From assembly GCA_000196815.1 (NCBI GenBank), contig FP929003.1, forward strand, positions 1,116,001 to 1,180,000: a stretch of 64,000 nt of DNA, given 5' to 3'. Source of the DNA: Nitrospira defluvii. GTDB taxonomy: Bacteria > Nitrospirota > Nitrospiria > Nitrospirales > Nitrospiraceae. Positions 13,708-17,402 of this stretch are shown in pieces. The position numbers were made by a program, and so were the translations under genes. The notes under the pieces are model-generated. The model was given only the letters and a program-made list of their open reading frames with translations. It was not told the origin of the DNA and did no database searches. Each line of letters opens with the position of its first letter. Within the stretch, counting starts at the first letter, position 1.

Positions 13708-14306
13708 GGCGCCTCGCTGATCGGAATGGTGACGATGACGCCGCCCATGATGTCGTTGAGTTTGTAGTCCCGTCGCGGGCTGTTTACGTGGGCATTGTGG
13801 CAGCTCACACAGCTTTCGGACACCGCCCGGTCTGCGTAGATGCCTTGGAAGTAGCGGACGCCCGCCTGCTGATAGAATCCGGTGAAGGGTTTTTCGGGTG
13901 CCTTCATGACGACCTCAAGCCCGCGCCGTTCGAACTCGCTGTTCGGTCCGTTCCACACATATATCGGGGTGAGGCTGGCCAGACGGAAACTGAGTTTCAT
14001 ATCCTTTTGCGCCACCAGGCGCCCGGATTCGAGGAGGAATTGGGCCGGGAGCGGGAGGCCCTTCTCCTCCTTCCAATGTTCGAGTGCCTCGACAACGCCC
14101 TGGTTATGGAGCTTGTCCACGACGTTCTGGGTGTAGTTGGCGCGATTTGCATCGATGACCGCATGAATAAAGCTGGTCACGCGCTCGGGGGAGACCATTT
14201 CCGCCTTGTGTGATTCTGCGAGCGCGAGGGCGATGACCCAGTAGGTGATGGCCGCCACGAAGCCGGCCACTCCTGCCGCCACGATCCATAACCCGTTTCG
14301 ACTCAT
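13704..14306 (-). CDS. DUF3365-like membrane-anchored cytochrome c
   Basis: 200 residues from MSRNGLW. An N-terminal membrane anchor (about 5-27) faces a periplasmic sensor-like domain (Tll0287/DUF3365 type) that ends with a single heme c site, CVSCHN, near residue 172. It probably acts as a redox or signal protein on the periplasmic face. The ATG follows GAGGAGGGG and overlaps the upstream aminotransferase stop as ATGA (14303-14306). The longer frame to 14450 lies inside the aminotransferase gene and is rejected. Pairing of a cytochrome with an aminotransferase and an amidohydrolase is unusual. Confidence 0.85.
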   Translation of the reverse strand: MSRNGLWIVAAGVAGFVAAITYWVIALALAESHKAEMVSPERVTSFIHAVIDANRANYTQNVVDKLHNQGVVEALEHWKEEKGLPLPAQFLLESGRLVAQKDMKLSFRLASLTPIYVWNGPNSEFERRGLEVVMKAPEKPFTGFYQQAGVRYFQGIYADRAVSESCVSCHNAHVNSPRRDYKLNDIMGGVIVTIPISEAP

Positions 14307-15520
14307 GCACCCCTCCTCGCCGATCCTAGTGAATGGGTATACACTTCTTCCGCTGCCTTGACGGCGCGGCCCGGCTGTGCCGGCCGTCCCTGGCCTGCAA
14401 AGATCTCTTCCAGGGCGTTGAGTAGCGTCAGCACGTGCGCCTGTCGGCACGATTCGCCCATAAGGCCGATACGCCAGACCCGCCCCCGTAAGGGTCCCAG
14501 TCCGCCGCCGAGTTCGATGCCGTACTGTTGCAGCAGGTGCGTCCTCACCATCGCCTCATCGATTCCGTCGGGCAGCGTGACACAGTTGAGCATCGGGAGT
14601 CGATGGCCCGGTGAAGGCAAGGGGCTCAAGCCCAGAGTTTGGAGCCCGGCCATCAATGCATCACTGTTGACCTGATGCCGGGCGATACGCGGCGGGAGGC
14701 CCTCTTCATGCACCAGCCGCAAGGCCTCTCGAAGTCCGTAGAGCATCGAGATCGGGGCGGTGTGGTGATAGGCACGGCTGTGATCGTTCCAATAGTCCGC
14801 GATGAGCGACAGATCAAGGTACCAGCTGTGGCAGGGCACTTGCCGTTTTCGGATAACACCCATGCCTCGCGGACTGACGGTCAGCGGGGCCAGGCCGGGG
14901 GGACAGCTCAGGCACTTCTGCGTACCGCTGTAGCAGGCATCGATTCCCCAGGTATCGACCTCGACCGGGATGCCTCCCAGGGAGGTGACGGCGTCGACGA
15001 TAAATAGTGCATCGTGCGCGCGGCACAGCGCCCCTACGTCCTCAAGGGGTTGGCGGGCGCCGGTTGACGTTTCCGCATGGACCAGGACCACGGCTTTGAC
15101 CGGAGCAGAGCGCGCCAGTTCCTGTTCCAGCGCCTCGATGGGAATCGTCGCTCCCCAGGGCGCTTCGATGCGAATCGGGATGCCGCCGCTTCGTTCGATC
15201 ATGGTCGCCAGCCTGGAGCCGAACACGCCGTTGACTCCCACGATCGCACGATCGCCGGGCTCGATAAGATTGGCAATCACCGCTTCCATGCCTGCCGATC
15301 CGGTTCCGGACAAGGCAATCGTAAACTCATTTTCTGTGTGGAACGTGGCACGGAGCAAGGCTTGAATCTCGTTCATCAGAGCGAGAAAAACCGGGTCGAG
15401 GTGGCCGAGCAGCGGCTGACCAAGGGCCTGCAACACCCGGGGATGGACCATGCTCGGGCCAGGGCCCATGAGCAGGCGATGCGGCGGAACAAAGTCCTGA
15501 TACCGGGAGGTTGTAGTCAT
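14303..15520 (-). CDS. class V PLP aminotransferase (alanine-glyoxylate/serine-pyruvate type)
   Basis: 405 residues. The class V fold type I aminotransferase pattern is present: LMGPGPSMVHPRVL at the N terminus, ALSGTGSAGMEA (PLP phosphate region), FIVDAVTSLGG (Asp binding the pyridine N) and the Schiff-base Lys202 in SGTQKCLSCPPG. C-terminal PLRGRVWRIGLMG is typical of alanine-glyoxylate or serine-glyoxylate aminotransferases. It would convert glyoxylate to glycine using Ala or Ser. It is first in the operon with the cytochrome and amidohydrolase. Its promoter must lie in or beside the 15594-15774 inverted-repeat element. Confidence 0.88.
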   Translation of the reverse strand: MTTTSRYQDFVPPHRLLMGPGPSMVHPRVLQALGQPLLGHLDPVFLALMNEIQALLRATFHTENEFTIALSGTGSAGMEAVIANLIEPGDRAIVGVNGVFGSRLATMIERSGGIPIRIEAPWGATIPIEALEQELARSAPVKAVVLVHAETSTGARQPLEDVGALCRAHDALFIVDAVTSLGGIPVEVDTWGIDACYSGTQKCLSCPPGLAPLTVSPRGMGVIRKRQVPCHSWYLDLSLIADYWNDHSRAYHHTAPISMLYGLREALRLVHEEGLPPRIARHQVNSDALMAGLQTLGLSPLPSPGHRLPMLNCVTLPDGIDEAMVRTHLLQQYGIELGGGLGPLRGRVWRIGLMGESCRQAHVLTLLNALEEIFAGQGRPAQPGRAVKAAEEVYTHSLGSARRGA

Positions 15521-15593: not shown

Positions 15594-15774
15594 CTAGCCC
15601 GGACTATGCCTGAATGCCGGCTCCGTTGTCCGATCCTCTCGGCCGGCGGGGCTGTTCTCGTTCGGCCTCCTCGACGGACTGCGAGTACACCTCCGTCTGC
15701 CTCGCTTGCGAGAAGCCCCGGCCGGCTTCGGTCTCGAACGCCTCGCGACGGCATTCAGGCATAGTCCGGGCTAG
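15594..15774. repeat. 181-bp element with perfect 26-bp inverted ends (MITE-like or long hairpin)
   Basis: Bases 15594-15619 are the exact reverse complement of 15749-15774 (left end begins CTAGCCCGGACTATGCC). Between them a second, imperfect stem of about 17 bp can form (15641-15660 with 15709-15725), plus a 6-bp inner stem GACGGA/TCCGTC, so the whole segment folds on itself. Both ends carry CTAG. If CTAG is the duplicated target, the element would be 173 bp inside a 4-bp duplication. No transposase is encoded. It sits in the 388-bp divergent promoter region between the aminotransferase and CPBP genes, so it is not a terminator for either. Confidence 0.75.
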
Positions 15775-15908
15775 TATAACGAAACCGGATGGGATTCAGC
15801 CATGGGATTATCCGCAGTTCCCGCCTGCGATCCTTCACTGTGCTGCGCCAGTTTCGCCTCTTGAATGCCGGTGGTATACTCCGGCGCCAATCACGCCCCG
15901 GAGGACCT

Positions 15909-17402
15909 GTGGCCGCAGACGAATCGATCGACTCGACATCGCAGACGCCCGTATCTCCGCTGCCCTGCGTCGGGGCGCCTCCTCCCCCACATGCCTACGA
16001 TCCCGGCTTCTCCCGCGCCATCACCTGGTTGTCGGCGGTCGTTCTCAGTGCCTCGATTGCGGTGGTCGCGTGGTTATCGTTCGATGTGCCGCGTGTGGAT
16101 CGGGTGCCGGATGCCGAACGAGCGCTCAGTCATATGGTCGGGCGCTTGATGGATCAGGAAGAGGGGCTCAAGACCCTGCCGGTCTGGGAACAGTTTCTCT
16201 ATGAAGTCACGATGGGCAGTGACGCGAACGATCGCGAGCAGGCGATTGAATGGTATCGCGAACTCGCTGAAGAATCGTCCGACCCCTCTGTCGATTTGCA
16301 TCTGGCGATCCTGGAGGGAGAATCCGGGCACCTGGCGGATGTGCAACAGAAAATGGCTCGATGGGTTCGGCAGGGTGAACCGTACCCGACCTTTACCAGG
16401 CTTCTGCAAGCGGGATATGTGGATGCCCGTGTGACTCCTGCTTCGGGTTTCGAGTTGCAGGCCTATCTGGCCGAGCAGTCCGTGTCAGGATGGTTCTACA
16501 GCCGCCTGGCCACTCGAATCGCCGAACGAGCCGGAGACCGGCCCTTGCTGGTGACGATTGAGACTTCCTCGCAGCAGCGGGTGGAGGCAGTGCTGTGGCG
16601 TTCCCGGGTGTTTGCCTTGCTCGAATCGACGCTCATGATCGTGGGGTTGTTCGTGCTGGCGTTGTGGGTCCGGCGGGGGCAGGGCACGGCAATGTTTCGC
16701 GTGGGGTCCGCGGAGCTTCCGCCCCTCTGGGCCGGCCGATTGGGCGCGGGGGTGTTACTGCGCGGGGGGGCGGTGGGCGCCCTGTTGACGGTGGCGTTTC
16801 TCTATATCGCCGGCGATTATCCATCGTTGCGGGTCGTCGCGGTGCCGCTGTCGAACCTTCCCCTGTTGGCCTTGGCCTACTACCATCTGCTCCGGCCCCA
16901 GCGGCAGACGTTCTGGCGTGGATTCGGGTTGCGCATCGAACCGCGCCATCTGGGGCAATTGGGGTTAGCGGTACTGGCGGTCGTGGCCGCGGGCCTCGTG
17001 GGCGAATGGGTACTGGGCCGGATCGCGGAACCGTTGAAATTGATCAGTCACTGGACCGAGTGGTTCGATGCGGATCTCGTGTGGGGCTCGTCGCCGACCC
17101 TCATGGTCAGCCTGATGGAATACGTGTTTTTTGCGCCCGTCTTTGAAGAATTGGCTTTTCGCGGTTTGTTGTTCGGTGTGTTTCGTCGCCGGTTTCAATG
17201 GGGCGTGGCCGCCATGCTGAGCGCGGCGTTGTTTGCGATCGCCCATGGGTATGGGTTGATCGGCTTCCTCAGCGTCTTCTGGAGCGGGATGATTTGGGCC
17301 TGGGCCTATGAACGGACCGGCAGCCTCTGGCCCGGGATGATCGGGCATGCCATCAATAATCTGCTGGTCTGTTTGAGTGTGATGGCCTTATTACGGGCCT
17401 GA
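15909..17402 (+). CDS. CPBP-family intramembrane metalloprotease
   Basis: 497 residues from the GTG start. An N-terminal transmembrane helix and a periplasmic helical region of about 200 residues precede a polytopic C-terminal half. The CPBP (Abi) catalytic motifs are present: EELAFRG near 412 (paired Glu and Arg), FAIAHG, and IGHAINN near the C terminus. The family includes Rce1-type prenyl proteases and bacteriocin-immunity proteins, and the substrate here is unknown. The frame is open to an ATG at 15789, but GTG at 15909 lies just after GGAGG (15900-15904) and removes an Arg-rich, non-family extension. Confidence 0.8.
   Translation: MAADESIDSTSQTPVSPLPCVGAPPPPHAYDPGFSRAITWLSAVVLSASIAVVAWLSFDVPRVDRVPDAERALSHMVGRLMDQEEGLKTLPVWEQFLYEVTMGSDANDREQAIEWYRELAEESSDPSVDLHLAILEGESGHLADVQQKMARWVRQGEPYPTFTRLLQAGYVDARVTPASGFELQAYLAEQSVSGWFYSRLATRIAERAGDRPLLVTIETSSQQRVEAVLWRSRVFALLESTLMIVGLFVLALWVRRGQGTAMFRVGSAELPPLWAGRLGAGVLLRGGAVGALLTVAFLYIAGDYPSLRVVAVPLSNLPLLALAYYHLLRPQRQTFWRGFGLRIEPRHLGQLGLAVLAVVAAGLVGEWVLGRIAEPLKLISHWTEWFDADLVWGSSPTLMVSLMEYVFFAPVFEELAFRGLLFGVFRRRFQWGVAAMLSAALFAIAHGYGLIGFLSVFWSGMIWAWAYERTGSLWPGMIGHAINNLLVCLSVMALLRA

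Follow-up and report, generated by a model that had tools for sequence, protein, structure and literature searches.

The window analysed here, a 64,000-nucleotide stretch of the Nitrospira defluvii genome (contig FP929003.1, positions 1,116,001 to 1,180,000), contains a 181-bp palindrome upstream of two divergent genes, which raises the question of whether it is a mobile unit or a resident regulatory structure. The initial annotation described perfect 26-base ends bordered by CTAG, with a second, imperfect stem and a third, short stem inside, and offered two readings: a non-autonomous transposable unit (MITE) with CTAG as target duplication, or a structured regulatory RNA or DNA. The structural description was borne out. 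The arms (15594-15619 and 15749-15774; 26 nt each, 129 nt apart) are 100% complementary, with CTAG at both ends of the element; the nested stem is 10 nt long and 90% paired, and the third stem corresponds to the central hairpin (Table 1). The terminal inverted repeats measure ~22 bp and begin CCCGGA(C/T)TATTCATGAAT. Folded as single-stranded DNA, the element reached -62.1 kcal/mol compared to -38.5 +/- 3.3 kcal/mol for dinucleotide shuffles of 15594-15774 (z -7.17), and 0/200 shuffles reached its energy. Its placement between divergent genes, the aminotransferase on the minus strand and the CPBP protease on the plus strand, was also confirmed. Although the open frame of the protease begins at 15789, the GTG at 15909, which is preceded by GGAGG, is the likelier start. 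Neither a sigma-70 promoter nor a convincing terminator (no T-run terminator) was found at the element.

Table 1. Coordinates of the palindromic element, its parts and the flanking genes (positions within the window).
Feature	Positions	Strand	Sequence or basis
Whole element including both target duplications	15594..15774	.	173-bp body + 2 x CTAG
4-bp target duplication, left copy, CTAG	15594..15597	.	single NTAG at the empty site in five relatives
4-bp target duplication, right copy, CTAG	15771..15774	.	empty sites and flanks of other copies
Left terminal inverted repeat	15598..15619	+	CCCGGACTATGCCTGAATGCCG; family consensus CCCGGACTATTCATGAATACCT
Right terminal inverted repeat	15749..15770	-	family consensus, read inward, CCCGGATTATTCATGAATGCCG
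Inner stem, 5' arm	15642..15651	.	covarying pairs in surrounding helix
Inner stem, 3' arm	15717..15726	.	covarying pairs in surrounding helix
Central hairpin block (approximate limits)	15670..15694	+	CTCGACGGACTGCGAGTACACCTCC; matches cross-phylum core TCGACGTACTG..AGTACGCCTC
Right subterminal block	15740..15750	+	GCCTCGCGACG; cross-phylum conserved form CCTCGCGACGA
Class-V aminotransferase gene (PF00266), flanking	14303..15520	-	start 15520
CPBP/Rce1-like membrane protease gene (PF02517), flanking	15909..17402	+	probable GTG start 15909

Searching the N. defluvii genome with the window copy gave 34 matches, 21 of them full-length and about 9 partial. The full-length copies have a near-constant length and are 77-100% identical to the window copy; the mean pairwise identity of the aligned copies, 81%, shows that they are decaying. 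The end pattern occurred 24 times per strand in this genome, compared to 0 for the reversed control pattern. Across the 61 genomes searched, 36 carried the element, including genus g14, which belongs to another family of the order. In some genomes many copies are 96-99% identical to the consensus and have therefore been active recently. The copy search suggested for the MITE reading was thus positive, with about 30 genomic copies besides the 36/61 genomes, and the outcome that would have favored a resident structure (no other copy, with the region conserved in relatives) did not occur.

When the flanks of the 21 copies were joined around one CTAG and searched in the genus, the window locus was found without the element in all five relatives examined. 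Each carries an uninterrupted site in which the tetranucleotide (GTAG in four relatives, CTAG in the fifth) is followed by TATAACG, with 77-91% identity across the joint. Because the relatives carry a single uninterrupted NTAG, the tetranucleotide is part of the target, and the element inserted at a pre-existing NTAG. The empty-site comparison proposed in the initial annotation thus gave an answer at this locus: since five relatives lack the element there, a resident regulatory RNA is excluded as its origin. Empty sites were likewise found for copies L003, L006, L008, and others; copy L002 is an exception, with CTAG as its left flank but CCAG or CTCAG at the empty site of its relatives. Among copies more than 90% identical to the consensus, the flanks were CTAG/CTAG in 31, TTAA/TTAA in 4, and CTAA/CTAA in 1, and the CTAA target of this last copy is a single, unoccupied CTAA in two relatives. 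The 4-bp flanks are a duplicated target of the form YTAR, with CTAG far more frequent than TTAA or CTAA. Multicopy, short, without a transposase gene, and having terminal inverted repeats, target-site duplications, and empty sites, the element shows these defining features of a MITE. The reading of a MITE with CTAG as target duplication thus held, on the ~30 copies, the single-tetranucleotide empty sites, and the TTAA and CTAA duplications elsewhere.

A TA-only duplication of the IS630/mariner type, suggested by the TTAG..CTAA flanks of some cross-phylum copies, was rejected on young Nitrospira copies flanked by TTAA/TTAA with ends CCCGG..CCGGG, and by CTAA/CTAA. At the sites orthologous to L316 (L340/L343), a collapsed hairpin of 26 bases flanked by TTAA repeats is left in one relative and a relic of 52 bases in another, which shows that the palindromes decay by internal deletion and leave footprints.

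The preferred target is rare. In a 464-kb sample of the N. defluvii genome, CTAG was observed 227 times against 1697 expected (7.5-fold rarer). In the same 464 kb, CTAG, CTAA, and TTAG occur 5- to 7.5-fold less often than base composition predicts, and GATC is two-fold over-represented. The duplicated tetranucleotide formed an in-frame stop at 33/58 independent insertion sites, compared to 66/195 unoccupied CTAG sites (ORFs of at least 80 codons; Fisher one-sided p 0.0014), and at 13/21 sites in the N. defluvii genome alone (p 0.012). Orientation relative to the stop codon was 24:14 at 80 codons, which is not significant. Insertions at CTAG may be tolerated because this tetranucleotide is rare and often supplies the TAG stop of a gene; those at a stop-codon CTAG should be nearly neutral, since the duplication would restore the stop. 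The window copy itself is not a stop-codon insertion.

The arms of the window copy have 0 mismatches, compared to 3-6 in the other full-length, ungapped copies of the genome. Both arms carry TGCCTG, which is absent from all other genomes of the genus searched, and they combine left-type and right-type bases. As two independent identical changes are unlikely, these shared novel bases suggest that one arm was copied from the other, possibly by template switching in the hairpin. In an alignment of 54 copies, 14 inner pairs had changed on both sides, compared to 6.4 in shuffles, with notable columns at 56-125 (AU/GC) and 61-120 (GC/UA). This covariation may reflect arm copying or selection. Compensatory changes, which the initial annotation had linked to a resident RNA, do occur within the element, but among dispersed mobile copies.

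The ends are not confined to Nitrospira. The end TAGCCCGGAYTATTCATGA, a query in which one base leaves out most Nitrospira copies, was found in at least 120 genome-contig stretches from Planctomycetota, Gamma-, Beta-, and Zetaproteobacteria, Acidobacteriota, Myxococcota, Desulfobacterota, other "Deltaproteobacteria", Zixibacteria, Eisenbacteria/Krumholzibacteria, Armatimonadota, Rokubacteria, Bacteroidota, and others; short elements bounded by the same ends occur in at least ten phyla. About fifty stretches have paired ends 161-319 bp apart, mostly 167-169, 182-187, or 202 bp among the matches listed. The inner sequences of these elements differ and many fold alike; between the 182-187 class and the Nitrospira consensus, three blocks align (CTGCTGCGG on the left, TCGACGTACTG..AGTACGCCTC at the centre, and CTCGCGACGA on the right). 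An inner profile built from ten elements from outside Nitrospira, after their ends had been trimmed, finds the window copy at E 2.7e-5 and other Nitrospira copies at E values down to 6e-11 (best reversed sequence, E 0.76). Because a profile lacking the ends finds the window copy, the likeness across phyla does not lie in the ends only. We consider it possible, though only tentatively, that the interior is a functional module, a mobile hairpin cassette of wide distribution to which a transposase or a host protein binds. On this reading, the central hairpin (C[AG]ACGTAC..GTACGCCTC), with asymmetric blocks and covarying arms around it, is common to CTAG-inserting MITEs of at least ten phyla and to a second palindromic family of the N. 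defluvii genome whose ends differ markedly, and CTAG/TAG stop targeting would make the spread of the cassette nearly harmless.

The conserved interior bears on the alternative that the mobile copies are kept as a structured RNA or DNA regulator for a hairpin function, for instance to protect 3' ends, to terminate transcription, or to serve as a site for a host protein. Such a regulator would explain both the inner blocks conserved over phyla, to which the inner-profile match of the window copy attests, and the covarying stem pairs (0/500 shuffles for the double-changed pairs), although covariation can also stem from arm-to-arm copying or subfamily structure. The enrichment of insertion sites at stop codons is also consistent with it, whereas the five relatives without the element at the window locus, the decay of the copies, the lack of any match among Rfam covariance models, and the lack of a T-run terminator or promoter make it unlikely.

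Its ends and target make an IS1380-type MITE the best reading of the element. In one clade of IS1380 elements of ~1.7 kb, both sides show CTAG or TTAG and, next to it, CC(C/T/G)G.ATTATTCA(T/C)GA-like repeats, and a member scored 371 bits against the NCBI IS1380 model (NF033539; cut-off 180). IS1380 elements of other Nitrospirota have CTAG- or TTAG-CCCGGATTATTCA(T/C)GA-like ends, and IS1380 elements on plasmids of Acidovorax temperans and Pseudomonas putida have the terminal inverted repeats CCCGGATATTTCAC and CCCGCATTTCTCACAG, respectively, with CTAG on both sides. The MITE resembles IS1380 (PF13701/NF033539) in its CCCGGAT..ATTCA(T/C)GA ends and 4-bp YTAR duplication (CTAG or TTAG), but it is geneless, its body is 173 bp instead of ~1.65-1.7 kb, and only about the first 17 bp are common, of which ~13-15 match in any IS1380 found. 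The search for a full-length transposase flanked by the same ends, proposed in the initial annotation, led to IS1380 elements with similar ends and the same CTAG flanks, but to no autonomous element with the exact ends of the MITE in the genomes searched.

The IS1380-family transposase (PF13701) was detected in 9/29 genus members at E 0.001, 7 of them above the family cut-off, and in 64/196 genomes of the order. Full IS1380 copies are present in G026 and G028 and remnants in G015 and G020, with ends slightly different from those of the MITE. The N. defluvii genome gave no PF13701 match and no autonomous partner with the same full ends; several other genomes that carry near-identical, recent copies, G008 and G023 among them, also have no PF13701 match. 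No IS1380 gene was found among the 120 cross-phylum loci listed, many of which end at contig breaks, including by tblastn of IS1380 transposases. Searches of a plasmid collection with the MITE and of viral contigs with its end returned nothing. IS1380, a relative of eukaryotic piggyBac, is the outgroup for the piggyBac tree, and the piggyBac target, TTAA (PMC10813416), is also used by some MITE copies.

As a whole, these observations are very probably best explained by a MITE with IS1380-type ends that duplicates YTAR, was mobilised in trans, and is now partnerless in this genome. Judging from ends and target, an IS1380-type (piggyBac-like DDE) transposase would act in trans on the ends of the MITE, cut the element out, and insert it at CTAG; the partner would since have been lost from N. 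defluvii, leaving the copies as fossils. Without an IS1380 transposase in this genome, the copies are probably immobile today.

Duplication of YTAR is also a trait of the IS5 group, whose ends begin with GG or GA, not CCCGG. Mobilisation by some other YTAR-targeting transposase, such as one of the IS5 group, would account for the target and for the genomes in which copies are recent and PF13701 has no match; it appears quite improbable, as the likeness to IS1380 ends would have to be convergent, while CCCGGAT(T/A)ATTCA-like ends with CTAG/TTAG flanks are common to at least six Nitrospirota and two plasmid IS1380 elements. That the element is REP/REPIN-like and was moved by a tyrosine (HUH, RAYT) transposase, with CTAG as part of the ends, is most improbable despite the strong hairpins, the CTAG at nearly all ends, and the GTAG-type tetranucleotide-tagged palindromes described in PMC3733652, since HUH transposition proceeds without the target duplication that the 181-bp element has (TTAA/TTAA, CTAA/CTAA, and a single unoccupied CTAA).

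MITEs are a known kind of element in bacteria. The IS1380-type MITE resembles Correia elements, Chunjie (a Geobacter MITE of 178-235 bp; PMC10969869), TIMEs (PMC4133298), and QMITE2 (PMC5896051) in being short, non-coding, multicopy, and mostly intergenic, with inverted ends, direct repeats, and stable hairpins; it differs from them in targeting CTAG/YTAR and in having inner blocks found in at least ten phyla. It is palindromic, intergenic, and tetranucleotide-tagged like the REP/BIME/GTAG palindromes moved by RAYT, but compared to these (PMC3733652) it is larger, with a true target duplication and no single-strand transposition signature. In the literature searched, outside which most subscription journals lie, we found no IS1380-type MITE with YTAR targets and cross-phylum inner blocks and no paper containing the MITE end sequence; as far as searched, this IS1380-ended, cross-phylum MITE group is previously undescribed. 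Many unannotated palindromes of Nitrospira and of uncultured bacteria from at least ten phyla would accordingly represent a single kind of mobile element whose target is defined, linked to the IS1380/piggyBac branch, in which genes are spared because the 4-bp target doubles as a stop codon. The conserved central hairpin poses the question of why the non-coding interiors of MITEs are alike across phyla.

Other palindromic families are present in the N. defluvii genome. A second family of ~128 bp (CAGGATGCTGAAAACG...CGTTTTGAGCATCCTG; L382-L411, e.g. G000:C1:1725574-1725597) shares the central hairpin CAACGTACC..GGTACGCCTC with the 181-bp element, although its ends differ markedly; this hairpin has 38 exact cores in the genome and none for the reversed pattern, most of those inspected belonging to the ~128-bp family. 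A third, CTAG-bordered family of 196 bp has several full-length copies, one of which (L015:1678-1873, G000:C1:2149089-2149284) adjoins a 181-bp copy head to tail across a single CTAG common to both. At eleven loci (L005, L011, L013, L014, L017, L018, L048, L280, L290, L295, and L307), a CAGG(A/C)T-like sequence lies directly at the right flank of the 181-bp copy; these flanks resemble the beginning of a ~128-bp family member, as if the edge of one element had provided the CTAG target of the other.
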